DNA of 21,051 nucleotides, taken from a virus. Made by a program: the position numbers and the translations under genes. The stretch spans positions 1-21,051 of IMG/VR virus record IMGVR_UViG_3300021409_000095; one strand, 5' to 3'. The notes beneath the pieces are model-generated. The model saw only the letters and a program-made list of their open reading frames with translations. It was not told the origin of the DNA and did no database searches. Of the stretch, positions 3,239 through 18,436 are shown piece by piece. Numbering within the stretch: position 1 is the stretch's first letter; every line of letters begins with the position of its first letter.

Positions 3239-3946
3239 TCAGTCTTCGTCATCACCATAAGCGAAGGCCGTGAGCCCTTCGGAGTCGAGCAGCCTGATCC
3301 GGTTGTATCCGCAGGCGATCCAGCCGGCCGCCTCGAACGCCGCCAGCTTGCGTCCGACGTGATGGCGCGAGAGGTTGGACATCTCGGCCAGTTGGCGGTG
3401 GGTGAGCCAGAAGCCCTCGGGGTGGTCCGTCTCCACTTCTCCGGCTCCCAGGACCCGGAACAGCACAGCCGCGAGGCGTCTGCCCGCATCCGGCGTCAGG
3501 AGGTCCCGCGCGATCCATGAGCCGAGGCGGTTTCCGATTTCGGCAAGCTGCCCCACCCGCACCGCGACATCGGCATCCGCCTGCATCATCGGCACGAGCC
3601 GGGTGCGCGACAGGTAGAGCAGCCCGGTGGGCTCCAAGGCCCGGTAGGTCAGCTCGCGCGGGCCGCCGTGAAGCACCGCCTTGATCCCGAACCACTCGCC
3701 TCGGCGGAAGACATGACCCAGAAGCGGGGACTGGCGTCGGTGCCCGCCCTCGACGCCGATCGAACCGGACACGATGCCATAGAGGCCATCGGACGCGTCG
3801 TCCCTGCGGAAAACGAAAGTTCCCGCCCGAACCTCGAGGGGGACGCCGTTCCTGATGAGCCGTCCCCGGAACGACGCCGGATGCTCGGACAGCCAGCCAC
3901 GGGCCGAGAATACGGCGTCGAGGTCGGTGATCTGACTGCGAGTCAT
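3239..3946 (-). CDS. Crp/Fnr-family transcriptional regulator
   Basis: About 235 residues. The N-terminal half is a cyclic-nucleotide-binding-type beta-barrel: RAGTFVFRRDDASDGLYGIVSGSIGVEG, then a GEWFGI turn. After a long helix (RVGQLAEIGNRLGSWIARDLL) comes a winged helix with recognition helix HRQLAEMSNLSRHHVGRKLAAFEAAGWI. The ligand pocket lacks the canonical Crp cAMP-binding Arg/Ser signature, and there is no N-terminal cysteine cluster as in FNR, so the signal is unknown. In-frame ATGs exist at 4012, 3961 and 3946. None has a convincing ribosome site; 3946 (MTRSQITDL) gives a protein of typical family length and keeps the intergenic promoter region free. The gene is divergent from the acylase at 4066, which suggests it controls that gene. 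Confidence 0.85.
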   Translation of the reverse strand: MTRSQITDLDAVFSARGWLSEHPASFRGRLIRNGVPLEVRAGTFVFRRDDASDGLYGIVSGSIGVEGGHRRQSPLLGHVFRRGEWFGIKAVLHGGPRELTYRALEPTGLLYLSRTRLVPMMQADADVAVRVGQLAEIGNRLGSWIARDLLTPDAGRRLAAVLFRVLGAGEVETDHPEGFWLTHRQLAEMSNLSRHHVGRKLAAFEAAGWIACGYNRIRLLDSEGLTAFAYGDDED

Positions 3947-4065
3947 GTTCTGCCCGGGCATCGGTCTTCGGTAGACGATCAATTGTGCCGAGATTGTCAC
4001 TTCGCGCAACATCGGTCGGTCCGGACGGTGTCAGATGCGCGCGTGGACCAACTGGAGCGAGACAC

Positions 4066-5127
4066 ATGAAACGGACCTTGAAGATCGGCATCAGCGCCGT
4101 GCTTTCGATGGCGATGGCGGCGCCCCACGTGGCCGATGCCTGTTCGCGCGCCGTCTATTTCGGCGAGGAAGGCCAGACCGTCACCGGCCGCACGATGGAC
4201 TGGATGGTGTCGGACATCGATACCAACATGTGGCTCTACCCGCGTGGGCTCGAGCGCAACAGCAACACCGCGACCCCGCTCGTCTGGACGTCGAAATACG
4301 GCAGCGTCGTGACCACCATCTTCGAGGGCGTGTCGGCGGACGGCATGAACGAGGCGGGGCTCGTCGCCAACATGCTCTATCTCGCCGAATCCGAGTATCC
4401 GCCACAGGCGGCCGACGATGCCCGCCCCACGCTGCCGATCTCGGCCTGGGCGCAATACGTGCTCGACAACTACGCGACCGTGGCAGAAGCAGTCGAGGCA
4501 TTGCGCAAGGAGGAGTTCCGAATGGTCACGGTCAATGCCCCAACGGGCGAGGCCGGGACCGTGCACCTGTCGATCTCGGATGCCTCGGGCGATTCCGCGA
4601 TCTTCCAGTACATCGGCGGCAAGCTGGTCATCTACCACAGCCGCGACTACCAGATCATGACCAACTCGCCCACATACGACCAGCAGCTTGCGCTGGCGGC
4701 CTACTGGAAGACCATCGGCGGGTCGGTCATGCTTCCGGGTACGAACCGGGCCTCGGACCGTTTCGTCCGCATGTCCTATTACATCAACGAGGCCACCCAG
4801 ACGGGCGATCCGCGGCGCGCGGTGGCGACCGTGTTCAGCGTGATGCGCAATGTCAGCGTGCCCATTGGCATCAAGATTCCGGGCCAGCCCAACATCGCCG
4901 ACACGCTCTGGCTGACGGTCTCGGACCAGAAGAACAGGGTCTACTATTTTCAGGACACCAACAGCCCGAGCATCATCTGGACGAACCTCGCCAGGCTCGA
5001 CTTCAGCGAGGGGTCCGGGCCCCGCAAGCTGCAGCTCGACGGCAACCCCGATCTCGCAGGGGACCAGACCGCGAACTATCAGCCGGCCGAGCTCTTCAAG
5101 TTCATGTCGCCGGACAACCCGCACTGA
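4066..5127 (+). CDS. Secreted linear amide C-N hydrolase (choloylglycine hydrolase / penicillin V acylase family)
   Basis: A 353-residue Ntn hydrolase. Residues 1-25 form a signal peptide (MKRTLKIGISAVLSMAMAA, ending ADA). Cleavage after ADA exposes Cys26, which would be the N-terminal nucleophile of this family. Counting Cys26 as 1, Arg17 and Asp20 (GRTMDW) match the conserved catalytic Arg and Asp. ADGMNEAGL and MTNSPTYDQQL are further family motifs, and a later Arg (NRASDRF) may be the conserved second arginine. A GGAGCGA ribosome site supports the ATG at 4066. Family members hydrolyse conjugated bile salts, penicillin V or, for some Gram-negative enzymes, N-acyl-homoserine lactones; the substrate here cannot be read from sequence. 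The protein is predicted periplasmic or secreted. It is divergent from a Crp-family regulator and sits as non-phage cargo in the late region of the prophage. Confidence 0.9.
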   Translation: MKRTLKIGISAVLSMAMAAPHVADACSRAVYFGEEGQTVTGRTMDWMVSDIDTNMWLYPRGLERNSNTATPLVWTSKYGSVVTTIFEGVSADGMNEAGLVANMLYLAESEYPPQAADDARPTLPISAWAQYVLDNYATVAEAVEALRKEEFRMVTVNAPTGEAGTVHLSISDASGDSAIFQYIGGKLVIYHSRDYQIMTNSPTYDQQLALAAYWKTIGGSVMLPGTNRASDRFVRMSYYINEATQTGDPRRAVATVFSVMRNVSVPIGIKIPGQPNIADTLWLTVSDQKNRVYYFQDTNSPSIIWTNLARLDFSEGSGPRKLQLDGNPDLAGDQTANYQPAELFKFMSPDNPH

Positions 5128-8748: not shown

Positions 8749-9348
8749 TCACCGATCAAGCCCTTCCTTGTCGAGGCGGTCCACCGGGATCGCCGCGCCG
8801 GCTGCGCCCAGCAGCGGCACGACGAAGCGGGCGAGGCCGCGGTGGACGTCCGTGACCTCGACCACCCAGCCGGCCATGGCGCCGTCGCGGATCCGCACCC
8901 GGTCGCCCGGTCGGACGGTGCGGGCCTCCTCGGCCTTGCGCCGCAGCGCGCGCAGCCGTCCCGGCACTTCCGCCATGCGCGCCATCACCGCGTCCGACAT
9001 CGGCATCGGCAGGCCGCCTGTGCCGATCACGCGAGTCAGCCAGCGGCACTCGCGCAGCGCCGGCCACTGCGGCGCGCCGGTGAAGCGGGCGAAGACGTAG
9101 CGGGGGACCACCGGCCGCTCGAAGCTGACCTTGCGCCGCGGCCCGCGGGCGAGCCGGCGCCAGGCGGTCTCGGTCGGGAACCAGGCCTCCACGCCCCGCC
9201 GGGCGAGCCAGGCCTGCGCCCGGAGCTCGGCCAGCGGCGGGGTCTGGAAGCCGAACCACACCGGCTCCTCCACCCCGAGCTGCAGCGGCGTGATCGCGGC
9301 CGGCGGCGCCGCGTCCCCGATCCGCCAGGGCGTGGACGGCTCACGCAT
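8749..9348 (-). CDS. NusG-family phage transcription antiterminator (NGN + KOW)
   Basis: A 199-residue protein. An NGN domain spans about residues 28-120: WFGFQTPPLAELRAQAWLARRGVEAWFPTE, then ERPVVPRYVFARFTG, matching the NusG/RfaH pattern of basic residues followed by P-x-Y-V-F. After a basic helical linker, a KOW motif follows at about 146-166 (VRPGDRVRIRDGAMAGWVVEV). NusG paralogues of this kind (RfaH, LoaP, phage versions) bind RNA polymerase and promote read-through of specialised operons. The start at 9348 has a GGGAGG ribosome site and overlaps the preceding stop by 8 nt. It occupies the position of lambda Q, after replication genes and before a gene-free gap and late genes, so a role in late gene expression is inferred. 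Confidence 0.85.
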   Translation of the reverse strand: MREPSTPWRIGDAAPPAAITPLQLGVEEPVWFGFQTPPLAELRAQAWLARRGVEAWFPTETAWRRLARGPRRKVSFERPVVPRYVFARFTGAPQWPALRECRWLTRVIGTGGLPMPMSDAVMARMAEVPGRLRALRRKAEEARTVRPGDRVRIRDGAMAGWVVEVTDVHRGLARFVVPLLGAAGAAIPVDRLDKEGLDR

Positions 9349-9586
9349 CGCAGCCTCCCCGGCGGCGCAGGGCCAGCCCCTCGAGGCGCCGGAACACCCG
9401 CCGCACGGCATAGCCGCGGGCCACCGAGGCGGCCGTGAACAGCGCGGTGATGCCGAGCGCATCCACCGCCGAGGGCGCCAGCCCCCACCACGGCAGCGCC
9501 CAGACGGTCAGCGCCCAGGACAGCGCGAAGCCCACCGCCGTGCCGGCGAAGGCCTCGACCAGATCGAGACGCCGGGCCCGCCTCAT
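9341..9586 (-). CDS. Small membrane protein, DUF7220-like
   Basis: An 81-residue protein, MRRARRLDLVEAFAGTAVGF, with two hydrophobic helices (about residues 12-32 and 38-55) and a basic C-terminus (ARGYAVRRVFRRLEGLALRRRGG). The pattern SLVEA-helix-helix-TAxSxxRxYxxRRxF matches small phage and plasmid proteins labelled DUF7220, whose function is unknown. Its ATG overlaps the stop of the upstream gene (ATGA), and its end overlaps the NusG-family gene, so it belongs to the same translationally coupled operon. Confidence 0.75.
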   Translation of the reverse strand: MRRARRLDLVEAFAGTAVGFALSWALTVWALPWWGLAPSAVDALGITALFTAASVARGYAVRRVFRRLEGLALRRRGGCDA

Positions 9587-10074
9587 GGCCGCCGCTCCTC
9601 GCCCCAGACCTCGCGGATGATCTCGGCGATACGCCCGGGGCTCGCCCGCTCGCGGCGTTCCGGCGCGTCGGCTTCGTCCCCGCGCTCGAGCGCCGCGATC
9701 ATCGCCCGCCGCGGGGCTCCGAGCCGGCGGCAGACCTCCTCGAGCTCCGCCCAGGACGGCCAGAACCGCCAGCGATGCTCGAGCAGGGCAGCCCGGGCCA
9801 CGTCGGCGGGAAAGCCCTGCAGGCGCCGGACATAGGCGGCGACCCGCAGTGTCTCGCCGGCCTCGTCGTCGGGCCGGCGCGCCACGATCACCGACAGCTC
9901 CGCCAGCCAGTGCTCCAGTTGCACGACGGTGGCCGGCTCCAGCAGCCGGCGCAGATCGCGCAGCGCCGCCGCGCGGGCCTCGGGGCTGCCCTCCACCCGG
10001 CAGCCGCGCACGACCGTCACCACGCCCAGCGAGCGGCCCTGCTCGTCCCGCGGGAAGCGGTAGTCATGGTCCAC
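9583..10074 (-). CDS. Phage protein downstream of the O-like initiator (possible helicase-loader analogue)
   Basis: About 163 residues if it starts at the GTG at 10074 (VDHDYRFPRDEQGRSLGV), which overlaps the O-like gene by 11 nt. The ribosome site is poor, and a GTG at 10125 preceded by GGAGGAG is an alternative. The protein is mostly helical: EASPEARAAALRDLRRLLEP-type repeats, then a conserved-looking FPADVARAALLEHRWRFWPSWAELEEVCRRLGAPRRAMIAALERG. The FPADVAR...WPSWAEL pattern recurs in phage proteins encoded next to replication genes. Position after an initiator suggests a lambda-P-like or replisome-organiser role, which is inference only. Confidence 0.65.
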   Translation of the reverse strand: MDHDYRFPRDEQGRSLGVVTVVRGCRVEGSPEARAAALRDLRRLLEPATVVQLEHWLAELSVIVARRPDDEAGETLRVAAYVRRLQGFPADVARAALLEHRWRFWPSWAELEEVCRRLGAPRRAMIAALERGDEADAPERRERASPGRIAEIIREVWGEERRP

Positions 10075-10792
10075 GTGCAAGCTGACGCCGCAGGACGATG
10101 CTCGCGAGACTGCTGCGCGGTCCACCTCCTCCGGGTGGCGCGCCGCCAGCCAAGGAGCGAGGGCCGAACTGCTCCCGCCGGTCGAGCCAGCCGCGCCAGG
10201 CGGCGTCCCAGTTCCGATAGAGCGAACCTCGGGCAAGGTGGTAATCGCGGAATCGCGCGGCTTCACGGCTGATCTCCTCATCTGACAGGTTGCGGTCGCG
10301 GGCATCCGCCCGGTTGCGGTCCGACGGCGCCCACTCCTCCGGAAGCGGCAGTTCCGGTCGGCGCCGCGTGCGCGCGCGTGCGCGGGAACTCCCGCAAGGG
10401 AGTTCCTCTGACGGTTCCTGATGGTTCAATGATGGTTCGGGGGAACGTGGTTCCGGGGTGCACGGAACGTCGTTCCGGGTCCGGCGGAACGAGCTTCCGG
10501 GGGGAACGTCGTTCCGGGGGGAATGTGCTTCCGGGTCCGTGACCACGCGATAGAGGTTGCAGCCGCGCGGTCCGGCGCCGATCTGGACCTCGATCCAGCC
10601 CTCGGACTCGAGGCGGCGGAGGATGGCGCGAACCCCGCGATCCGTCATCCGCACCCGCCGCGCGAGCGTCTCGAGGCTCGGCCAGCAGTGCCCCTCGTCG
10701 TCGGCATGATCGGCCAGCGCCAGCAGCACGAAGCAGGCCCCCGTGTCGGACGGGCCGGCCTCCCAGACGCGGGACATCACCCGGACGCTCAT
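10064..10792 (-). CDS. Phage replication initiator-like protein (winged-helix, O-like)
   Basis: A 242-residue protein. Residues 1-85 form a winged-helix DNA-binding domain typical of phage O-type replication proteins: MSVRVMSRVWEAGPSDTGAC, then LLALADHADDEGHCWPSLETLARRVRMTDRGVRAILRRLESEGWIEV. A low-complexity linker of Pro/Ser/Arg residues follows. The C-terminal element LSDEEISREAARFRDYHLARGSLYRNWDAAWRGWLDR is common at the ends of phage replication proteins. The start overlaps the previous stop (ATGA). The DNA encoding the linker carries five regularly spaced GGAA-N5-TTCC palindromes, as the lambda O gene carries the lambda origin. Binding of the array by this protein is predicted, not shown. 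Confidence 0.8.
   Translation of the reverse strand: MSVRVMSRVWEAGPSDTGACFVLLALADHADDEGHCWPSLETLARRVRMTDRGVRAILRRLESEGWIEVQIGAGPRGCNLYRVVTDPEAHSPRNDVPPGSSFRRTRNDVPCTPEPRSPEPSLNHQEPSEELPCGSSRARARTRRRPELPLPEEWAPSDRNRADARDRNLSDEEISREAARFRDYHLARGSLYRNWDAAWRGWLDRREQFGPRSLAGGAPPGGGGPRSSLASIVLRRQLARGP
10385..10532. repeat. Iteron-like palindrome array, candidate phage replication origin
   Basis: Five 13-bp palindromes GGAAyGnnnTTCC begin at 10442, 10464, 10486, 10503 and 10520, with spacings 22, 22, 17 and 17. On one side are three GGTTC half-sites (10413, 10423, 10434) spaced about 10-11 bp, in the least GC-rich stretch nearby. Beyond them lies a perfect 9-bp inverted repeat (GGAACTCCC 10385-10393, GGGAGTTCC 10398-10406, loop GCAA). 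Everything lies inside the linker-coding part of the O-like gene. The repeats are seen directly; the origin role is inferred from the lambda O/ori arrangement. Confidence 0.6.
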
Positions 10793-11049
10793 GGCGCGGA
10801 CACCGGCGATGCCGGCGGCTCCCGCATCACCCGGTCCTGGAAGCTCCGGACGATGCGGCGCAGCGCGGCGACCTGCCGGGGCGACAGAGGTCGGCCCGGG
10901 AAGCGGCGGCGGCGGGCGATGAGGGAGGCGCAGAAGCGGCGCTCCCAGTCGGACACGCCGCCGTCGCACACCAGCGCGGGCAGGTAGGCGCAGAGGGCCT
11001 CGGCCGCGTCCTGCGCAGCCTGATCGGGGATCCGGGGCGCCGCGATCAT
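10789..11049 (-). CDS. Small helical phage protein, unknown function
   Basis: An 86-residue protein (MIAAPRIPDQAAQDAAEALC). The second half, SDWERRFCASLIARRRR followed by LSPRQVAALRRIVRSFQDRV, resembles a short helical module (WE-x2-F-x-x-S...LS-x-x-Q-x3-L-x-x-I) seen near replication genes of many phages, whose function I do not know. It starts 4 nt after the RuvC-like stop and ends overlapping the O-like start (ATGA), so it is an integral member of the replication operon. Confidence 0.65.
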   Translation of the reverse strand: MIAAPRIPDQAAQDAAEALCAYLPALVCDGGVSDWERRFCASLIARRRRFPGRPLSPRQVAALRRIVRSFQDRVMREPPASPVSAP

Positions 11050-11053
11050 GGGA

Positions 11054-11497
11054 TCACACCCAGCGCATGCCGAACCAGGCGATCAGGGCGGCCTCGGCGC
11101 GGCCGTCTTCCTTCGCCCGGGTCCACTGCTCGGCGTCGAGCGGGAACAGCATCGAGGCCTGCTGGCGGGCGCCGGCCTTGTCGCGCGGGACGTTCAGCGC
11201 GCGTTTCCAGTCCACGGGCCGGACCTCCCGCACCGGGATCCCGGCGGCGAAGAGGCTGGCGGTGAGGGCGCCATAGGCCTCGGCGATCACGGTGGCGGAG
11301 CGGATGCCGATCCCGGGCGGGTAGAAGGGCTTCTCGAGGACGGCGAAGGCCACAGGCGTGAGCGTGGGCAGGAGGTCCTGCAACTCCGCCACCGAGGCGG
11401 GCAGGTCCTGCGTGCTCACCCGCCAGCCGCCACAGTCGCCGCGCGCCAGCGCCGCGATGGCGCCGCGCCGGCCGGGGTCGATGCCGAGGAGCCGCAT
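11054..11497 (-). CDS. RuvC-like Holliday-junction resolvase
   Basis: A 147-residue RNase H-fold nuclease. It opens with MRLLGIDPGRRGAIAAL, where the Asp of GIDPG is the first catalytic acid of the RuvC family. AVLEKPFYPPGIGIRSA supplies the central Glu (LEKP, equivalent to LE-x-P/Q). DGRAEAALIAWFGMRW gives the C-terminal Asp/Glu/Ala motif (DGR-AEAALIA). Phages use such enzymes to resolve branched replication and recombination intermediates before packaging. The size matches phage-type RuvC proteins. It starts 2 nt after the GapR-like gene and precedes the small gene at 11049. Confidence 0.85.
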   Translation of the reverse strand: MRLLGIDPGRRGAIAALARGDCGGWRVSTQDLPASVAELQDLLPTLTPVAFAVLEKPFYPPGIGIRSATVIAEAYGALTASLFAAGIPVREVRPVDWKRALNVPRDKAGARQQASMLFPLDAEQWTRAKEDGRAEAALIAWFGMRWV

Positions 11498-11499
11498 GG

Positions 11500-11853
11500 T
11501 CAGAGCTCCAGCGCGGCGCGGTACATCTCCACCACCGCCTCGAACTCGGCCCGTTCCTCGGGCCGCATCCGGCGCAGCCGGATCACCTCGCGCAGGGCCC
11601 TGGTGCTGTAGCCGCGGGCCTTGGCCTCGGCCATCACCTCGCCCTGTTGCCGGGCCAGATCGCGCCGCTCGGCCTCCAGCGCCTCCCATTGCGCGACAAA
11701 CTGGCGGAGCTCGCCGGCGGCCGCGGACTCGACCTTCGCCCGCACCGCGGCGTCCTGCGGGCTCTCCCGCAGGGGGCGAGGCGGGGCGGCCTCTGCCCCG
11801 GCGAACAGCGCGAGCTCCCCGCCGCTCGTGGCGCCATGCCCATCCTCGATCAT
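11500..11853 (-). CDS. DUF2312 / GapR-family DNA-binding protein
   Basis: 117 residues from the ATG at 11853 (MIEDGHGATSGG), which has an AGGGAGG ribosome site about 8 nt upstream and an ATGA overlap with the preceding stop; an ATG at 11889 is also in frame. The C-terminal core matches the DUF2312/GapR family: AAAGELRQFVAQWEALEAERRDLARQ, then EVMAEAKARGYSTRALREVIRLRRM. GapR of Caulobacter is an essential alphaproteobacterial protein that binds overtwisted DNA ahead of replication forks. A phage copy inside a replication operon may aid fork progress or bias host replication. The N-terminal 40 residues are variable and Pro/Ala-rich. Confidence 0.85.
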   Translation of the reverse strand: MIEDGHGATSGGELALFAGAEAAPPRPLRESPQDAAVRAKVESAAAGELRQFVAQWEALEAERRDLARQQGEVMAEAKARGYSTRALREVIRLRRMRPEERAEFEAVVEMYRAALEL

Positions 11854-12074
11854 CGCCGATCCTCCCTTGCCGGTCTGCGGCGCCACCACCGCGCCGCCGA
11901 AATCCCCTCGCGGCGCGCGAGTTCATCGACGCGCCGCTGCATCGCCCGGGAAACCTCGCCGGTGAGCTCGCCCTGATCGCCCAGCTGCGCACGCACGCCG
12001 TCCAGCTCGGCCAGCGAGCCGGTGGCGAGGATCACCCCGATCAGATGCCGCGTCCGGCCCGGATCCCCGCTCAC
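11850..12074 (-). CDS. Small phage protein, unknown function
   Basis: A 74-residue product: MSGDPGRTRHLIGVILATGS, then LAELDGVRAQLGDQGELTGEVSRAMQRRVDELARREGISAARWW. It appears as a helical, charged protein with a possible coiled-coil segment around residues 35-55. Both ends overlap neighbours by ATGA (with the cytosine methyltransferase upstream and GapR downstream), which is the main evidence that it is translated. No family recognised. Confidence 0.65.
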   Translation of the reverse strand: MSGDPGRTRHLIGVILATGSLAELDGVRAQLGDQGELTGEVSRAMQRRVDELARREGISAARWWRRRPAREDRR

Positions 12075-13138
12075 CCCGCGCCCTCCTCGGTCATGCGGAT
12101 GAAGGCGGCGGCAACCTGCGGGACGATCGCGTTTCCATAGGCGCGCAGGCGTCCCAATCTGGCGGAAAACCCATCAACCAGCGGGAATGTGCCGGGTTCA
12201 ACCGGCCGCCAGCGGCCATCCCGGCAGAAGAGCCAGTCCGCATCTCCCCATCCGCCGTGAGGCGCGCCGGGCCCGTCCAGTCCGGCGGCAGCGCCAACCC
12301 ATGGCCCGCGATCTCTGCCCCGCAGAGCGCCGCCGTCCGCCGGCTGGAATCCGTGTTGCCCGCTGCATTGCAGCCCGCCCGCGACGCGGTGCCCGCCATC
12401 GGCGTGGGCCAGCCCGCCAGCCGCGCCGCATCGGCCGGGTTCAGCCCGGGCTTCATGCCGCGTGCCAGCTTCGCCCCCGGCTCCTCGCCGGTGCCATTGT
12501 CCGTCGCGGTCGGGGTCGGCCAGCCCGCCAGCGCCGCCTGCCGCGGCAGCTGGTCCAGCCGCGACCGGCCGTCCGGCCGCGCCGTCGCCATGCCGGGCGT
12601 GTCCTTCCAGTCCCGCGCCGAGGCCGTCGCCCAGCCGGTCCGCGCGCCACCACAGCCGCTGGCGGATGTGCGGCGCCCCGACGCCCGCAGCGCAGAGATC
12701 GGCCGCCCGGCAGGCGTAGCCCGCAGCTTCCAGGTCAGCGCATACAGCGTCGAGCCAGCGCAGGCCGTCGGGGCTGGCCACCTGCTCGCCCAGGACGACA
12801 GCCGGCCGGCAGGCGTCGATGAGGCGGAACCAGACCGGCCAGAGATGCCGGTCGTCGGCAAAGCCCCGCCGCCGTCCGGCGCCGGAGAAGGGCTGGCAGG
12901 GGCAGGAGCCGGTCCAGACCTCGCGCCCGTCCGGCCAACCGGCGAGCCGCAGGGCAAGGTCCCATCCGGCGATGCCGGCGAAGAAATGGGCGCGTCCAGC
13001 CCCGGCAAGGTCGGCTGGACGCAGCTCGGCCACCGACCGCTCATCGACGGTCCCCCGCATCACCAGCCCCGCCGCGATCAGCGCGCGCAGCCAGGCCGCC
13101 GGATAGGGGTCGTTCTCGTTGTAGAAGGCCCACGTCAC
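12071..13138 (-). CDS. Phage DNA cytosine-5 methyltransferase
   Basis: 355 residues from the GTG at 13138 (VTWAFYNENDPYP), which overlaps the Cro-like stop as GTGA and has a GGAGGGGG stretch upstream. Visible C5-MTase motifs: HFFAGIAGWDLALRLAG (AdoMet loop, about 51-67), GSCPCQPFSGAGRRRGF with catalytic Cys81, GEQV (117-120) in place of the usual ENV, GAPHIRQRLWW (motif VIII-like), and near the end RLRAYGNAIVPQVAAAFI (motif X). The region from about 170 to 290 is Gly/Ala-rich, and no restriction enzyme is adjacent, so this is an orphan methyltransferase. The likely role is protection of phage DNA from host restriction or control of transcription. A second long frame overlaps it almost entirely. 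Confidence 0.88.
   Translation of the reverse strand: MTWAFYNENDPYPAAWLRALIAAGLVMRGTVDERSVAELRPADLAGAGRAHFFAGIAGWDLALRLAGWPDGREVWTGSCPCQPFSGAGRRRGFADDRHLWPVWFRLIDACRPAVVLGEQVASPDGLRWLDAVCADLEAAGYACRAADLCAAGVGAPHIRQRLWWRADRLGDGLGAGLEGHARHGDGAAGRPVAAGPAAAAGGAGGLADPDRDGQWHRRGAGGEAGTRHEARAEPGRCGAAGGLAHADGGHRVAGGLQCSGQHGFQPADGGALRGRDRGPWVGAAAGLDGPGAPHGGWGDADWLFCRDGRWRPVEPGTFPLVDGFSARLGRLRAYGNAIVPQVAAAFIRMTEEGAG
12091..13044 (-). other. Long overlapping alternative reading frame in the cytosine methyltransferase gene
   Basis: A 317-codon frame (MSGRWPSCVQPTLPG...) lies inside the methyltransferase gene on the same strand in another phase. It contains repeated LAGWPTP segments, ARDWKDTPGMA, RSRLDQLPRQ, LTWKLRATPAG, a GWPTPMAGT...AAGNTDSSRRT block and a terminal WLMGFPPDWDACAPMETRSS. 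From memory these motifs recur in proteins annotated from many unrelated phages and bacteria, so the frame may be conserved. It may instead be a systematic mis-annotation of the same methyltransferase family. I list it as possible only. Confidence 0.3.
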
Positions 13139-13359
13139 GGCCCCCTCCGCCGCGCGTCCAAGTCCCGCTGCGCCATCCAGTCGCGCAGCCGCGTGATGGT
13201 GCGGGGCAGGCACTGGCGCCCGGCATGGAGGTCGGCCACGAAGGAGGGATCCCCGAGCGCCTCGCGGCCGATGCGCGAGCGCGCAAGGCCGGTGCGGGCC
13301 GCGAAGGCCTCGATCTCGGCGACCAGGTCGGGGTGGGCTATGGGATCGGAGCGCCGCAT
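13135..13359 (-). CDS. Cro-like small DNA-binding regulator
   Basis: A 74-residue protein with an evident helix-turn-helix of Cro/C1 type: LVAEIEAFAARTGLARSRIG, then REALGDPSFVADLHAGRQCLPRTITRLRDWM. It is divergent from the CI-like gene and is the first gene of the leftward operon. A candidate promoter (TTGCCT at 13394-13389, 17-bp spacer, TATCGT at 13371-13366) would begin transcription at or next to the ATG, and no Shine-Dalgarno is present, so the mRNA may be leaderless. A repressor site fills the spacer of this promoter. It probably counteracts the CI-like protein; this role is inferred from position. Confidence 0.75.
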   Translation of the reverse strand: MRRSDPIAHPDLVAEIEAFAARTGLARSRIGREALGDPSFVADLHAGRQCLPRTITRLRDWMAQRDLDARRRGP

Positions 13360-13365
13360 GCCCGA

Positions 13366-13394
13366 ACGATAGGATAAAACCTAAGATCAGGCAA
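13366..13394 (-). promoter_or_regulatory. Promoter of the leftward lytic operon with embedded operator O1 (13369-13384)
   Basis: On the minus strand, TTGCCT (-35) and TATCGT (-10) are separated by 17 bp. The 16-bp imperfect palindrome ATAGG-ATAAAA-CCTAA occupies the spacer and touches the -10 element. Bound repressor would block RNA polymerase. The site is one of four related copies in this region. Confidence 0.6.
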
Positions 13395-13433
13395 GACGCG
13401 TCGGGAAAAATCGGAATGGCGCTGCGTCACGCT

Positions 13434-13449
13434 GTAGGATATAGCCGAC
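13434..13449 (+). promoter_or_regulatory. Operator O2 upstream of the CI-like gene
   Basis: GTAGG-ATATAG-CCGAC has one conserved half (TAGG) and one degenerate half and ends 2 nt before the CI-like ATG. It is centred 65 bp from O1. Its position suggests autoregulation of the repressor gene. No good -35/-10 pair for cI was found. Confidence 0.5.
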
Positions 13450-13451
13450 AC

Positions 13452-13790
13452 ATGGACCGAGACCCGACGATGACCCTCGTGGCCGCGAACATCGCCGCAG
13501 CGATGGAGCGGCAGAAGACCAATTGTGCAGAAGTGGCGCGCCGGGCGGGCACCGGGCCGACCAGCGTCTACGACATCGTCAGCGGCAAGAGCAAGAACCC
13601 CCGGCTCGACACGCTCCGCAAGATCGCCGAGCAGGGTTTAGGTGTTCCTCTGATTGCACTTTTCGTGCCGGAGGAGGAGGCTGAGCTCGACCAGGAGATC
13701 CTGCAGGTCTTTGCCAGGATGCCGCTCGAGCGGCGGCGGGATCTGCTTGCACTGGCACAGGCCCTCCTGTCGCAAACCCCCAGTCGATGA
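13452..13790 (+). CDS. CI-like XRE-family phage repressor
   Basis: A 112-residue protein with an XRE helix-turn-helix (about residues 7-62): MTLVAANIAAAMERQKTNCAEVARRAGTGPTSVYDIVSGKSKNPRLDTLRKIAEQGLGVPL. A short helical C-terminal tail follows: EEEAELDQEILQVFARMPLERRRDLLALAQALL. There is no LexA-type peptidase domain, so induction would not use RecA-stimulated self-cleavage. The start is the ATG at 13452 without a clear ribosome site (MTLVAA at 13470 is an alternative). Divergent from the Cro-like gene, with palindromic operators on both sides, it is the obvious candidate for the lysogeny repressor. Confidence 0.82.
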   Translation: MDRDPTMTLVAANIAAAMERQKTNCAEVARRAGTGPTSVYDIVSGKSKNPRLDTLRKIAEQGLGVPLIALFVPEEEAELDQEILQVFARMPLERRRDLLALAQALLSQTPSR

Positions 13791-13863
13791 GGGTCTGCAA
13801 CAGCGTCAGCTTGTCCCGATAGGACAGGCGCTGCAGCGTTCGGGCGAACTCGACGTCCAGCAT
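13579..13863 (-). CDS. Possible small gene convergent with and antisense to cI, uncertain
   Basis: A minus-strand frame starting MLDVEFARTLQRLSYRDKLT, then LLQTLIDWGF, has a very GC-biased third position over its first 30 or so codons, before it enters DNA antisense to the CI-like gene, where it looks like a shadow. It may be the surviving 5' part of a truncated gene. An ATG at 13887 is an alternative start. Function unknown. Confidence 0.3.
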   Translation of the reverse strand: MLDVEFARTLQRLSYRDKLTLLQTLIDWGFATGGPVPVQADPAAARAASWQRPAGSPGRAQPPPPARKVQSEEHLNPARRSCGACRAGGSCSCR

Positions 13864-13932
13864 CCCAACCCCCAGAATGCCACCCAAGCGATACTGAAGA
13901 GGCTATCTTTCAACTTTGGGGTGATATGGCAA

Positions 13933-13948
13933 GAAGGAAAAATCCTAG
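13933..13948 (+). promoter_or_regulatory. Operator O4 (distal copy before the recombination operon)
   Basis: GAAGG-AAAAAT-CCTAG shares the AGG-N6-CCT core and AT-rich 6-nt spacer of O1 and O3. It is centred 34 bp upstream of O3. It is weaker at the outer positions. Binding by the CI-like repressor is predicted. Confidence 0.45.
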
Positions 13949-13956
13949 CACGCGAC

Positions 13957-13985
13957 TTGCGCGAACTTAGGATATAACCTAATCT
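13957..13985 (+). promoter_or_regulatory. Promoter of the rightward recombination operon with embedded operator O3 (13967-13982)
   Basis: TTGCGC (-35, 13957-13962), a 17-bp spacer and TAATCT (-10, 13980-13985). The best copy of the palindrome, TTAGG-ATATAA-CCTAA with perfect 5-bp arms, covers the spacer and the edge of the -10, the same layout as at the leftward promoter. Transcription would start near 13992, leaving a short leader with AGGGGGA as ribosome site for the ATG at 14011. Confidence 0.6.
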
Positions 13986-14010: not shown

Positions 14011-14253
14011 ATGACCGACGCACCCATCCGCCTGAGCGGCAGCCCGGACACCGGCTGGACGCTGGACCGCGACGGCAGGCCGCTTCTGCAGTTCCGCGAC
14101 GGCCAGGAATTGGCCGATATCCTCGGCGCCCTCGACGAGGCGCTGCCGGAGATCGAGGCCGCGGAAACCGCGGCGCAGGATGCGGTGGACGAAGAGGAAC
14201 GCCGCCATCAGGCGGCCGAGCGGCTCCTGACCCTCAGCGCGCGGAGCCTGTGA
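14011..14253 (+). CDS. Small acidic phage protein, unknown function
   Basis: An 80-residue product, first gene of the rightward operon (MTDAPIRLSGSPDTGWTLDR). The N-terminal third looks like a small beta-sheet unit (GWTLDRDGRPLLQFRDG). The rest is acidic helix (ADILGALDEALPEIEAAETAAQDAVDEEERRHQAAERLL) with coiled-coil character. An AGGGGGA ribosome site lies 8 nt upstream. Its stop overlaps the next ATG. The position just before a RecE-like nuclease suggests an accessory role in recombination, but no family is recognised. Confidence 0.7.
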   Translation: MTDAPIRLSGSPDTGWTLDRDGRPLLQFRDGQELADILGALDEALPEIEAAETAAQDAVDEEERRHQAAERLLTLSARSL

Positions 14254-14468
14254 TGAGCGTGGCCGAACTCATGGCCGCCGAGGCGCGCGCCGGCCGGCTG
14301 GAAGTCGCGATCCATGGCGCGCTGTCCGAAATCCGCTCGGCGCAGCGCTTCGCCCGGGCGTTGGCCCGCGACCCCGCCGCCGACTGGCGCCTCGACGCCA
14401 TCGCCGAGCGGATCGATCTGGCAGAGCGCACCCTGACGGATGCGCTGGCCCGTGGAGGCCGTTCATGA
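14253..14468 (+). CDS. Small helical phage protein, unknown function
   Basis: A 71-residue, almost wholly helical product: MSVAELMAAEARAGRLEVAI, then SEIRSAQRFARALARDPAADWRLDAIAERIDLAERTLTDAL. The ATG at 14253 overlaps the preceding stop (TGATG), and the stop overlaps the next start (ATGA). Translational coupling in the recombination operon is the main support. No family recognised. Confidence 0.65.
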   Translation: MSVAELMAAEARAGRLEVAIHGALSEIRSAQRFARALARDPAADWRLDAIAERIDLAERTLTDALARGGRS

Positions 14469-15421
14469 CCCCGGGCCTGCACCGCCTCGAGGCCGAGGCC
14501 TATCACCGCGACCCGGCGCCGGCGCCCTCGCTTTCCAGCACGCTGGCGCGGCTGCTGCTGCGCCGCAGCCCCGCCCATGCCTGGCATGCGAGCCCGCGGC
14601 TGAACCCGGACTGGCAGCCGGTGGAGAAGGCCCACTTCGACATCGGCCGCGCGGCACACCGGGCGCTGCTCGGGGCCGGCGCGGACTATGCCGTAATCCC
14701 GGATGAACTCCTCGACGCGCGCGGTGCGATCAGCACGAAGGCGGCGAAGGACTTCGTGGCCGAGGCCCGCGCCCGGGGCCTGACCCCCATCAAGAGCGAC
14801 GTCGCCGCCCAGATCGAGACCATGGCCACGCTCTGCCGCGCCCGGCTGCAGGAGGCGGGCATCGCGCTGGAGCCGGAGCGGAGCGAGCTCACGGCACTGG
14901 CGCAGATCGACGGCGCCTGGTGCCGCTGCATGGCCGACAACGCGCCGGAGCGCCCGCTGGGCCGCCTCGGGCCGGTGCTGGTGGACTTCAAGACCACCAC
15001 CGACGCGAACCCCGCCGCCATCGAGCGCACGGTCATGACCTACGGCTACGACCTGCAGGCGGCCCATTACCTCGACACCTGGCGCGCCGCCACCGGCGAG
15101 ACCCGGGCCTTCGTCTTCGTCTTCCAGGAGAAGGAGCCGCCGCACGAGGTCGCCATCGCCCTGCTCGCGGGCGAGGCGCTGGAGATCGGCGCCCGGCAGG
15201 CCCGCGAGGCCCGGCAGCTCTGGCGCGCCTGCGTGGAGAACGGGAGCTGGCCCGGATACGAGGGCGGGATCCACCAGATCCGGCTCCCCGACCACTACAC
15301 CGCCCGCTGGCTGGAGCGCGAGAGCCAGTTCCACACCGCCCGCGACCGGATCGGCCGCGACACCCTCGAGGCCGCGCGCCGCTGGCAGGCCCCCGACAAC
15401 ATGGCAGGAGCCCCCGCATGA
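14465..15421 (+). CDS. RecE-like PD-(D/E)XK exonuclease
   Basis: A 318-residue protein of the PDDEXK-like exodeoxyribonuclease VIII type. SSTLARLLLRRSPAHAWHA (23-42) resembles the N-terminal substrate-contacting helix of this family. FDIGRAAHRALLGA (58-71) matches its conserved G-x-A-x-H motif. The metal site is likely Glu141 (SELTAL), Asp158 (ADNAPE) and VLVDFKTT with Asp174 and Lys176. YDLQAAHYLDTW (195-206) is the Q-x3-Y motif. Such enzymes resect double-stranded DNA to give single strands for annealing. The adjacent downstream gene is a Sak4-like ATPase, giving a complete phage recombination pair. ATGA overlaps on both sides indicate coupling. Confidence 0.85.
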   Translation: MTPGLHRLEAEAYHRDPAPAPSLSSTLARLLLRRSPAHAWHASPRLNPDWQPVEKAHFDIGRAAHRALLGAGADYAVIPDELLDARGAISTKAAKDFVAEARARGLTPIKSDVAAQIETMATLCRARLQEAGIALEPERSELTALAQIDGAWCRCMADNAPERPLGRLGPVLVDFKTTTDANPAAIERTVMTYGYDLQAAHYLDTWRAATGETRAFVFVFQEKEPPHEVAIALLAGEALEIGARQAREARQLWRACVENGSWPGYEGGIHQIRLPDHYTARWLERESQFHTARDRIGRDTLEAARRWQAPDNMAGAPA

Positions 15422-16521
15422 CCATCCGCTTCATCCCGGTCGCGGACATCCACGACCCGCTCACCGTCACCCTCGGCCTCTCTGGCGCCAGCGGCACCGG
15501 CAAGACCTACAGCGCGCTGCTCGTGGCCCGCGGACTGGCCGAGGCCGCCACCGGCCGCCCCGGCGCCCCCATCGGCTATGTCGACACCGAGAACCGCCGC
15601 GCGCTGCACTACAAGCAGGCCTTCCCCGAGATGGCCCATTTCGACATGCAGGCGGTCGATGCCGGAGGCACCCTCGTGGGCTTCGGCCCCGAGCGCTGGA
15701 TCGAGGTGATCGACGCGGCCGAGGCCGCCCAGCTCCCGGTCCTCGTCATCGACAGCTTCAGCCACGCCTGGGAGGGGGTGGGCGGCGTCCTCGACCTGCA
15801 CGCCCAGACCCTCGACCGGCTGACCCGTGGCGACGACAGCAAGAAGGACGCCCGCAGCCAGCTGGCCTGGGCCGAGGTGAAGCCGCGCTACCGCCGGCTG
15901 ATCGACCGGATCGTGCGCGCCAACTGCCACATGGTCATCTGCACCCGCGCCAAGCCGGTGCTGCAGGACCCCCGCAGCGGCCGCAACGCCCGCAAGACGA
16001 AGACCCGCCGCGCCGACGTGCCCTGGGACGTGGCCGGCGACGGCGATCTGCTGTTCGAGATGACCGCCATGATGATGCTGGACCCGGCCGCCCCCGGCTG
16101 CCCCGTCCACCAGATCAAATGCGCCGACCAGTTCCGCGCCCTCTTCGACCCGCGCCGCCCCATGGGGGTCGAGACCGGCCGCGCCATGGCCGCCTGGACG
16201 AAGGGCCAGGGTGACGCCCAGGCCCAGAAACAGCTCCTCGACGACGCCCGCGCCGCCGCCCGCCGGGGCCGCGACGCCTTCACCGCCTTCTGGAACAGCG
16301 ACCGCGGCAAGGAACACCGCGCGCTCCTGCGCAGCATCCTCGACGAATGCAAGAGCCTCGCCCGCGAGGCCGACGCCGAGGCCGAGGCCTGCGACACCGA
16401 CCCCTTCGGCCTGCCGCCGCTGCCCGACGACCACGCCCTCTCCGACGCCGACCGCGAGCGCATCGCCGCCGAGGTCCGCGCCGAGACCGACCGCCTCGCC
16501 CGCGAGGCCCCCGGACCGTGA
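15418..16521 (+). CDS. AAA_24/Sak4-like phage recombination ATPase
   Basis: A 367-residue P-loop protein. Walker A is GASGTGKT (23-30); Walker B is LPVLVIDSFSHAWEG (106-120). The region around RADVPWDVAGDGDLLFEMTAMMML and the RecA-like core fit the AAA_24 family that includes the phage single-strand annealing protein Sak4. The C-terminal 100 residues are charged and helical (QKQLLDDARAAARRGRDAF, DEDC-type acidic patch AEAEACDTD) and are longer than in minimal Sak4 proteins. Its start overlaps the RecE-like stop. A role in annealing or strand exchange with the exonuclease is inferred; it could also be a replication-associated ATPase. Confidence 0.78.
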   Translation: MTIRFIPVADIHDPLTVTLGLSGASGTGKTYSALLVARGLAEAATGRPGAPIGYVDTENRRALHYKQAFPEMAHFDMQAVDAGGTLVGFGPERWIEVIDAAEAAQLPVLVIDSFSHAWEGVGGVLDLHAQTLDRLTRGDDSKKDARSQLAWAEVKPRYRRLIDRIVRANCHMVICTRAKPVLQDPRSGRNARKTKTRRADVPWDVAGDGDLLFEMTAMMMLDPAAPGCPVHQIKCADQFRALFDPRRPMGVETGRAMAAWTKGQGDAQAQKQLLDDARAAARRGRDAFTAFWNSDRGKEHRALLRSILDECKSLAREADAEAEACDTDPFGLPPLPDDHALSDADRERIAAEVRAETDRLAREAPGP

Positions 16522-16525
16522 CGGC

Positions 16526-16585
16526 CTGCGACCCCGACAGTCGCAGCCCGGCGCGATCCCGCGCCAGGGCCGCTCCGGAAGCGGC
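16526..16585 (+). terminator. Three tandem hairpins after the recombination operon
   Basis: Directly after the ATPase stop come three perfect 6-bp stems. CTGCGA/TCGCAG spans 16526-16546, GGCGCG/CGCGCC spans 16550-16565 with loop ATCC, and GCCGCT/AGCGGC spans 16569-16585. No T-run follows, so termination strength is uncertain, but the tandem arrangement is not accidental-looking. Confidence 0.5.
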
Positions 16586-16620
16586 AACATCGCACGGGCC
16601 CGGAAGTCAACCCATTGATT

Positions 16621-16634
16621 TTACTGTAACGTAA
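16621..16634. promoter_or_regulatory. TTAC-N6-GTAA palindrome upstream of the AT-hook gene
   Basis: TTACTGTAACGTAA sits in an AT-rich patch 50 bp before the AT-hook protein gene, next to TTGATT (16615-16620), which could be a -35. It has half-site spacing like the repressor sites but different arms. It is possibly an operator for the integration module. Confidence 0.35.
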
Positions 16635-16684
16635 GCCTGTGTGCGCTGTCTGGAGAGGCCCACCCCACCGCTCAGGAGGACCCC

Positions 16685-16960
16685 ATGACCGAGACCCTCA
16701 CCACCCCCGACACCCGCAAGCGCGGCCGCCCGCCCAAGGACCCCGCCGCACAGTTGCCCCCGCTGGACCCGACGCAGGAGATCCACGTCGTCCTCTACCG
16801 CGCCGGCTCCACCGACCGCGCCGAGGTCCTCCACAGCGCCGCCGCCGCCGCCGCCCGTGCACAGGAACTCGCCGCCACCCGCGGCACCCCCGTCTTCACC
16901 TTCGGCCCCCCGACCGGCGCCTACAGCGTCGCCGCCGTCAACCTACTGGCCCGAAACTGA
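16685..16960 (+). CDS. Small AT-hook protein
   Basis: A 91-residue protein. Residues 10-18 (TRKRGRPPKDP) contain the RGRP core of an AT-hook, which binds the minor groove of AT-rich DNA. The remainder (EIHVVLYRAGSTDRAEVLHS, helix AAAAARAQELAATRG, then PVFTFGPPTGAYSVAAVNLL) looks like a small alpha/beta domain of unknown family. A CAGGAGGA ribosome site lies 5 nt before the ATG. It stands between the recombination and integration modules. It might be an architectural protein for excisive recombination or a regulator; this is speculation. Confidence 0.7.
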   Translation: MTETLTTPDTRKRGRPPKDPAAQLPPLDPTQEIHVVLYRAGSTDRAEVLHSAAAAAARAQELAATRGTPVFTFGPPTGAYSVAAVNLLARN

Positions 16961-16965
16961 CCCGA

Positions 16966-16988
16966 GGCGGGCGGCACCCCCGCCCGCC
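16966..16988 (+). terminator. Strong GC hairpin between AT-hook and excisionase genes
   Basis: GGCGGGCG (16966-16973) and CGCCCGCC (16981-16988) form a perfect 8-bp stem with a 7-nt loop, 5 nt after the AT-hook stop. There is no T-run. It may attenuate read-through into the excisionase and integrase genes. Confidence 0.5.
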
Positions 16989-17023
16989 GGACCAACGCGC
17001 ATGAAAAACCCAAGGGACAAGAC

Positions 17024-17257
17024 ATGAGCACCACCGTCCGCCCGTTTGTGCCTGCAAGACTGCTGGGAGAGCGCGCGGCGGCCGAATACCTCGGGGTGTC
17101 CCCGACGACCCTCCGCGGCCTCGGATTGCCGCGCCGGGTTCTGGGCGCAAGGCGGCTCTATGATGTCGCCGACCTCGAGGAATTCGCCGATGGTCTGCCC
17201 TATGAAGGCGAGCCGGAGAAGAACACGTGCGACGAAATCTGGGGCAGAACGGCGTAA
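17024..17257 (+). CDS. Excisionase-like small HTH protein
   Basis: A 77-residue protein with a MerR/excisionase-type winged helix: LLGERAAAEYLGVSPTTLRG, then LGLPRRVLGARRLYDVADLEEFADGL. The ERAAAEYLGVS...RR-LYDVADLEEF pattern is typical of HTH_17 proteins encoded next to integrases. AAGGGACA provides the ribosome site. It overlaps the integrase start by 31 nt. It is expected to set the direction of recombination, or to regulate int; either fits. Confidence 0.78.
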   Translation: MSTTVRPFVPARLLGERAAAEYLGVSPTTLRGLGLPRRVLGARRLYDVADLEEFADGLPYEGEPEKNTCDEIWGRTA

Positions 17258-18336
17258 GGCTCAGACATGTGCACACCGTCCGCAAGGGCGGGCGGGTCTA
17301 CCGGTATCTCCGGGCGCCGGGCCGGGAACGGGTCCGGCTTCCGGACTTGCCACCCGATCATCCCGACTTCATGGCCGCCTATCTTGCGGCCTTGCAGGAG
17401 GCGCCGAAGGCGGTTCGCAAGCCCGGAGCCGGCACCATTGCGGCGCTGGTGGAGGCCTACTTGCGGAGTTCGGATCACGCCGGTCTTTCCCCGGACTACC
17501 GGCGCATCATCAAGCGGGAGGCCGAGGCCATTGCCCGGACGGGAGGTCACGCCCGGGCCGCCGATCTGCGCCCCAACCACATTGCCGTCGATCTCGCGCC
17601 GCTCGCGCCATTCGCCGCCCGCAACCGCCGGTCCGCCTGGCGCGCCATCTGCCGCCACGCCCATGAGATCGGCCTGCTCGAGAGCAATCCGGCGGAGAAT
17701 GTGCGGGGCAAGAAGCTGCCCAAGAGCGACGGCTTTCCGCCATGGACATCCGCGGAGGTCGACAAGTTCCGCGAGCATTGGGCGCTCGGCAGCGTCCAGC
17801 GCCTCGCGTTCGAGCTGCTCTACTGGACCGGCTGCCGAATCGGCGATGCGGTGAAGCTCGGGCCGCAGCATGTGGCGCGGGACGGTGTGCTGGAGTTCAA
17901 GCAGAGCAAGACCGGCAACCCCGCCTGCGTTCCATGGACCTGCCCGCTGCCAGCCTATGCCGCGGCGATGGAGGCAGACCGTGATCTGCTGCACGCTGCC
18001 ATCGCGGCGCATCCCAGCGGACACCTGACATGGCTGGCGACCGCCTGGGGAAAACCCCGCACCGTCGCCGGCCTCGGCAATCTCATGACGAGCGCCGCGC
18101 AGGCCGCAGGGCTGGCGAAGTCGGCCCATGGTCTGCGCAAGGCACGGTCGGTCGCACTGGCAGAGGCGGGGGCCACCGCCCACCAGATCAGTGCCTGGAC
18201 CGGGCACGAAACGCTCCGCGAGGTGGCGCGCTACACGAGGTCCGCGGACCGCCGGCGGGCGGTCATGGGAACGGATGCGGACCGCGAGTCTGTAAACCCG
18301 GGTGGTGAAGTTTACAGATCGGCGGAAAAGGGTTGA
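17227..18336 (+). CDS. int: Tyrosine recombinase (phage integrase)
   Basis: 369 residues from the GTG at 17227, which has a GGAGAAG ribosome site. The N-terminal part (about 1-60) fits an arm-binding region and 70-160 a SAM-like core-binding domain. The catalytic residues are in the expected order: Arg204 (YWTGCRIGDA), Lys228 (QSKTGN), His301-x-x-Arg304 (SAHGLRKA), His327 (WTGHETL) and Tyr336 (VARYTR). It integrates and excises the prophage. It ends 24 nt before the 3' end of a convergent tRNA-Val, the usual attachment target of such enzymes. The start lies inside the excisionase-like gene, so expression is coupled. Confidence 0.93.
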   Translation: MRRNLGQNGVRLRHVHTVRKGGRVYRYLRAPGRERVRLPDLPPDHPDFMAAYLAALQEAPKAVRKPGAGTIAALVEAYLRSSDHAGLSPDYRRIIKREAEAIARTGGHARAADLRPNHIAVDLAPLAPFAARNRRSAWRAICRHAHEIGLLESNPAENVRGKKLPKSDGFPPWTSAEVDKFREHWALGSVQRLAFELLYWTGCRIGDAVKLGPQHVARDGVLEFKQSKTGNPACVPWTCPLPAYAAAMEADRDLLHAAIAAHPSGHLTWLATAWGKPRTVAGLGNLMTSAAQAAGLAKSAHGLRKARSVALAEAGATAHQISAWTGHETLREVARYTRSADRRRAVMGTDADRESVNPGGEVYRSAEKG

Positions 18337-18360: not shown

Positions 18361-18400
18361 TGGTGGGTGATGACGGACTCGAACCGCCGACATCCTCGGT
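18361..18400. other. Probable prophage attachment site within the tRNA-Val 3' half
   Basis: The integrase gene ends next to the 3' end of tRNA-Val, and everything on its far side is host-like. The duplicated core would be a stretch of the tRNA 3' half, including the T arm. The matching copy should lie beyond the left edge of this window; no second copy exists inside it. Exact borders cannot be set from one side. Confidence 0.45.
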
Positions 18401-18436
18401 GTAAACGAGGCGCTCTACCAGCTGAGCTAATCACCC
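18361..18436 (-). tRNA. tRNA-Val (anticodon UAC)
   Basis: On the minus strand the sequence begins GGGTGATTAGCTCAGCTGG and folds as a full cloverleaf. The acceptor is GGGTGAT/ATCACCC, the D stem GCTC/GAGC, the anticodon stem CCTCG/CGAGG with loop TTTACAC (anticodon TAC), and the T arm GGCGG-TTCGAGT-CCGTC. The 3' ACCA is encoded (18361-18364). It is intact, so integration at its 3' end has regenerated the gene. Confidence 0.97.

Follow-up and report, generated by a model that had tools for sequence, protein, structure and literature searches.

A probable lambda-like switch with TAGG-N6-CCTA operators and a short XRE repressor in a Rhodobacteraceae-type prophage

Introduction

The lysogeny switch of bacteriophage lambda is arranged as a leftward cro gene, OR and a rightward cI gene, followed further on by OL, from which the recombination genes, xis and int are reached. 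The lambda operators lie inside the divergent early promoters, with the best sites at PR and PL, and the operator beside the start of cI serves autoregulation. Among the alphaproteobacteria, the temperate Rhizobium phage 16-3 has a C repressor and two operator regions (OL and OR), with operators of the form ACAA-N4/N6-TTGT. To our knowledge, little is known about the control of lysogeny in alphaproteobacterial temperate phages. The repressor of phage 16-3 and immX are mentioned in PMC10460002, and a search of the literature on alphaproteobacterial phage operators found nothing close to the operators described here. Two short repressors provide further points of comparison. The Rep protein of Salmonella phage SPC32H, whose working forms are the dimer and the tetramer, is released by Ant, an antirepressor (PMC9638917). 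In Bacillus, SinI hooks onto the C-terminal helices of SinR and thereby releases SinR, the partner consisting of the same two helices (PMC3163267).

In this study, the immunity region of the virus record IMGVR_UViG_3300021409_000095 (21,051 bases, 71% GC; this whole stretch is referred to as the window) was analyzed together with related loci. An earlier note had listed four operator sites around the repressor gene and proposed that they form one operator set for two divergent operons; its list contained neither a degenerate fifth site (OR2) nor the small convergent ORF described below.

Results

Gene map

The window holds the dormant prophage of a temperate bacterial virus in a Rhodobacteraceae-type genome, and its features are given in Table 1. 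The cro and cI genes are divergent with operators in between, here as in related loci. The start of the repressor gene is ATG 13452, in favour of which ATG 13416 was rejected. In the leftward operon, the NusG paralogue is a possible phage antitermination factor. The tRNA-Val gene is the likely attachment site of the prophage, and the right end also carries host groEL, as read from the translation. Toward the terminase end lies a choloylglycine hydrolase family (CBAH) gene (E 2.5e-47), and the gene divergent from it has by eye the look of a Crp-type regulator; the two may be cargo or host DNA. A near copy from a Rhodobacteraceae MAG (L005) is 94% identical across 4.6 kb and differs at one operator base among the four sites, which is located in OL1.

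Table 1. Positions of operators, promoters and genes in the window
Feature	Position	Strand	Sequence or remark
Choloylglycine hydrolase family gene	4066-5124	+	
Crp-type-looking gene	3239-4012	-	
Leftward operon beyond cro	8749..13213	-	
NusG paralogue (PF02357)	8749-9462	-	Leftward (lytic) operon
HTH_36 protein	10064-10813	-	Leftward operon
GapR-like DNA-binding protein	11500-11889	-	Leftward (lytic) operon
C5 methyltransferase	12071-13213	-	Leftward operon
Cro-like protein	13135..13359	-	74 aa; first gene of leftward lytic/replication operon
Predicted PR	13366..13394	-	TTGCCT (13394-13389), 17 bp, TATCGT (13371-13366)
OR1 (O1)	13370..13383		TAGGATAAAACCTA; 0 mismatches to TAGG-N6-CCTA; in spacer of cro-side PR
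OR2 remnant	13402..13415		CGGGAAAAATCGGA; degenerate middle site, 4/8 arm bases
OR3 (O2)	13435..13448		TAGGATATAGCCGA; 1 mismatch; ends 3 nt 5' of repressor ATG
CI-like XRE repressor P0001	13452..13790	+	112 aa; HTH, then two C-terminal helices
Small ORF, tail-to-tail with repressor	13765..13863	-	Conserved part; ATG 13863; frame open to 13579
OL2 (O4)	13934..13947		AAGGAAAAATCCTA; 1 mismatch; ~30 bp upstream of OL1
Predicted PL	13957..13985	+	TTGCGC (13957-13962), 17 bp, TAATCT (13980-13985)
OL1 (O3)	13968..13981		TAGGATATAACCTA; 0 mismatches; in PL spacer
Rightward operon	14011..18336	+	Begins with two small ORFs
Exonuclease VIII-like	14465-15421	+	Rightward operon
AAA ATPase	15418-16521	+	Rightward operon
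AT-hook-like small ORF	Between AAA ATPase and Xis-like gene	+	Rightward operon
Xis-like HTH	17024-17257	+	Rightward operon
Tyrosine integrase	17227-18336	+	Rightward operon
tRNA-Val (TAC)	18361-18436	-	Immediately past integrase gene

Operator sites and promoters

All four sites of the earlier note were recovered by pattern matching at the positions that it had given. Over the whole window, there are five matches to TAGG-N6-CCTA when one mismatch is allowed, against 1.0 expected, and none of 100 shuffles reached five. The four operators fall inside 612 bp; the fifth match, GAGGCCGAGGCCTA at 14489, has a GC core and lies inside the exonuclease gene. Within the 614-bp region 13369-13982, the four sites compare with a mean of 0.12 in shuffles (0 of 2000 shuffles) and the two perfect sites with a shuffle mean of 0.0005, which places the set far above random frequency. 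When the stretches upstream and downstream of the repressor gene were shuffled separately, 0.02 and 0.07 sites were obtained, against two observed in each. The OR2 remnant occupies the position of the middle site of L099-L102 and L107, in which the copy is better.

The claim that O1 and O3 each lie in the 17-bp spacer of a plausible promoter held for the hexamers and their spacing, both of which are present, but both PR and PL fall below the threshold of a strict sigma-70 consensus scan of the window. In relatives aligned on the sites, a TTG is found at an equal distance from OR1 on the cro side, OL1 lies directly 3' of TTGAC in most, with this TTGAC at or near the place of the -35 element of PL in the window, and OR1 and OL1 stand immediately 3' of a TTG-type -35 element in nearly all. 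Furthermore, in close relatives the cro ATG follows the end of OR1 by ~10-15 nt; OR3 stops just short of the cI ATG, by a few bases, and OL2 lies 26-34 bp upstream of OL1. The PR transcript is expected from this spacing to start at or near the cro ATG, and from the site-to-ATG distances we infer that the cro and cI messages are leaderless. Across loci, perfect arms were found in 13 of 14 OL1, 12 of 16 OR1, nine of 14 OR3 and six of 13 OL2 sites, and the arms of OR3 and OL2 are also less symmetric than those of OR1 and OL1, a ranking that fits a lambda-like filling order of the predicted operators.

Related loci

A search of viral contigs with the single repressor protein gave no match, and alignment-based patterns were needed. 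Relatives were fetched by protein patterns only, from repressor alignment A4, and their sites were inspected afterwards. Every one of the nine relatives (L099-L107, corresponding to six distinct loci) that are at least 42% identical has sites at about -77 and -18 relative to the repressor ATG. In most of them a second cluster follows downstream, close to the recombination-operon promoter (at +479/+508 from the repressor start in L099, +1103/+1133 in L100 and +487/+517 in L101). Over the six distinct loci, one of which (L100) is contig L037, with sites already seen before this blind test, the upstream sites number 13 (0.24 expected) and the downstream sites ten (0.94 expected); at a tolerance of one mismatch, L104-L106 show weak OL sites or none. 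Since the sites recur in place beside independently fetched repressors, the comparison supports the proposal that a single operator set serves both divergent operons.

The S24-type relatives L117, L118, L121 and L125 have both OR and OL sites, with a three-site OR at spacings of 23 and 35 bp in L117, L121 and L125, and L120, which has a longer S24-type repressor, likewise carries TAGG-N6-CCTA operators. Beyond the viral set, the alphaproteobacterial genome L132 also shows a 2+2 arrangement. Porphyromonas-like relatives (L110-L116; 37-39% identity) showed only isolated near-matches near the repressor. In relatives further removed, the geometry is retained with a different operator sequence, namely TAGG-N8-CCTA in L009 and TAGT-N8-ACTA in L011. 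Among all viral contigs, paired AT-core sites 8-38 bp apart were found in 29 contigs, against three with an arm-swapped control; in many of these contigs the sites lie beside a cro/cI pair, and several are without an obvious switch.

Separately, three copies of TAGG-N6-CCTA were observed in L073 (11097-11151) and four in L087 (1396-1483), with no cro/cI pair recognised in the pieces read. In addition, matches to the repressor HTH were found in Rhodobacteraceae genomes inside frames of 740-760 aa (L007, L008, L012, L016, L019, L021, L022 and L024) that read like ribonucleotide reductases (MTLFNCFVMGTIPDSMGGIF...), the HTH being fused to, or encoded within, the enzyme-like frame.

The repressor

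An S24/LexA-like self-cleaving domain is absent from P0001, for which Pfam returned HTH families only and the model shows an HTH and two helices. The AF2 model (pLDDT 90) places the C-terminal helices at 74-88 and 92-108. Beyond the HTH, its full-length structural matches are PDB 5d4z, a Salmonella temperate phage repressor that we take to be SPC32H Rep (98 of 102 residues, r.m.s.d. 2.6 A), and SinR (PDB 1b0n; 99 of 103 residues, r.m.s.d. 4.5 A, 15% identity), and the predicted structure is that of an HTH with a two-helix C-terminal hook of the SinR/SPC32H Rep type. A search of P0001 against phage records gave no sequence match to the 16-3 repressor at E 0.01. Because a self-cleaving domain is absent, lambda-type RecA induction cannot apply, and on the predicted structure the induction of this prophage must differ from that of lambda.

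The small convergent ORF

In seven distinct short-repressor loci, a minus-strand ORF lies between cI and OL, with ribosome sites that are plausible by eye. In leave-one-out locus searches with the seven sequences, which had been chosen by eye, the ORF came top in five of seven (E 5e-6 to 0.07) and second in the window (E 0.11) and was missed in L104, and support for a family is therefore moderate. A search of S24-type loci with the same operators by the small-ORF HMM found no member. The small-ORF profile matched the C-terminal hairpin of the repressor over 31 columns in register (E 2.5e-4, Prob 43%), with the caveat that amphipathic hairpins can look alike; none of 200 column shuffles reached this score, and the repressor N-domain and a reversed profile scored far lower. 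The 33-residue peptide is predicted to form a two-helix hairpin (helices 2-11 and 15-31, pLDDT 92); at an offset of 77, the break between its helices and its second helix line up with the corresponding parts of the repressor. The idea that the ORF arose by inverted duplication of the repressor tail was rejected, the DNA identity being 27/84. Between the window and L005, a near pair, three codon changes in the ORF are silent and three are not. No leftward promoter for it was recognisable by eye at OL2.

Discussion

Taken with the enrichment and conserved geometry of the sites and the gene order, the immunity region is very probably a lambda-like switch in which the short XRE repressor binds OR and OL, probably sharing them with the Cro-like protein. 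The repressor would bind two clusters, OR (OR1, the degenerate OR2 and OR3) between cro and cI and OL (OL2 and OL1) ahead of the recombination/integration operon. On OR1 and OL1 it would cover the spacers of PR and PL, turning off the lytic and recombination operons, and on the weaker OR3, which adjoins its own start codon, it would limit its own synthesis. The Cro-like protein probably reads the same operators and would compete for them.

The locus shares with lambda the gene order, operators in predicted divergent early promoters, a site at the cI start, the most perfect sites at the predicted PR and PL, and a second cluster with the same operator sequence at the recombination-operon promoter; its map is the mirror image of that of lambda, with OL facing the recombination genes. 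However, the operator here is TAGG-N6-CCTA, OR has one degenerate site and OL has two sites, the clusters are just ~0.6 kb apart with a candidate small antagonist gene in between, and the 112-aa repressor has no cleavage domain, self-cleavage belonging to lambda but not to all such switches. Phage 16-3 is likewise an alphaproteobacterial temperate phage with two operator regions, but its operator letters differ, and a search of the open-access literature with the operator letters found no paper. The predicted fold of P0001 is shared with SPC32H Rep (PDB 5d4z and 5d50), whereas the candidate antagonist here, in place of Ant, is the small convergent ORF. SinR is likewise a short XRE repressor ending in a two-helix hook, as predicted for P0001, and is a cellular biofilm regulator and not a phage repressor.

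The operators alone do not have the power to tell which protein binds, because TAGG-N6-CCTA is also found beside unrelated S24 repressors, with the XRE repressor and the Cro-like protein as candidate binders. A Pfam search with the 74-aa Cro-like protein gave no match, and the alignment of its family, which stands beside XRE/S24 repressors in many loci, was too diverse for use as a search query. In L067, L080 and L088 the operator and Cro homologues are kept although the neighbouring S24 repressor has a different HTH, which suggests that the Cro-like protein reads the operator too. These loci also lend something to the improbable reading that the operators belong mainly to the Cro-like protein, with the XRE repressor mostly an autoregulator or acting through other sites. 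However, the sites are found beside all close relatives of the XRE repressor, members of the Cro family with other operators exist (L009, L011 and L029), and CI and Cro of the lambda type share operators, so that both may hold. It is very unlikely that a host regulator exploited by the phage binds the sites: TAGG/CCTA palindromes resemble some metal-regulator boxes, but the 3.2-Mb near-copy MAG (G001) has just two perfect matches, one of which is OR1, and the operators are therefore unlikely to be a host regulon; furthermore, in alphaproteobacterial phages that are distant from one another, the sites go with the phage cro/cI pairs. Chance, or AT-rich spacer composition within a GC-rich genome, has a negligible probability, since the intergenic stretches are indeed AT-richer than the window as a whole but the shuffles of those very stretches and the arm-swapped control refute it.

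With the lambda-like switch as the preferred reading, the small ORF is put forward as a hypothetical repressor antagonist by analogy with SinI and SinR, although sinI, unlike the small ORF, is not convergent with sinR. Tentatively, and with somewhat less than even likelihood, it may encode a SinI-like peptide that mimics the repressor hairpin, heterodimerises with the repressor and switches the prophage on, replacing the self-cleaving domain in this clade. If this is true, the small ORF would offer an answer to the question of how induction occurs in prophages that lack a cleavable repressor.

The lambda-like wiring is known; what is new is the operator class and its sequence, in the setting of a repressor without a cleavage domain, together with the candidate SinI-like antagonist. 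A wide range of temperate phages of alphaproteobacteria is thereby given a sequence-defined operator class. The OR/OL geometry is kept while the operator letters vary (TAGG-N6-CCTA, TAGG-N8-CCTA and TAGT-N8-ACTA) and the repressor type, short or self-cleaving, likewise changes, and immunity groups are therefore predictable from sequence.
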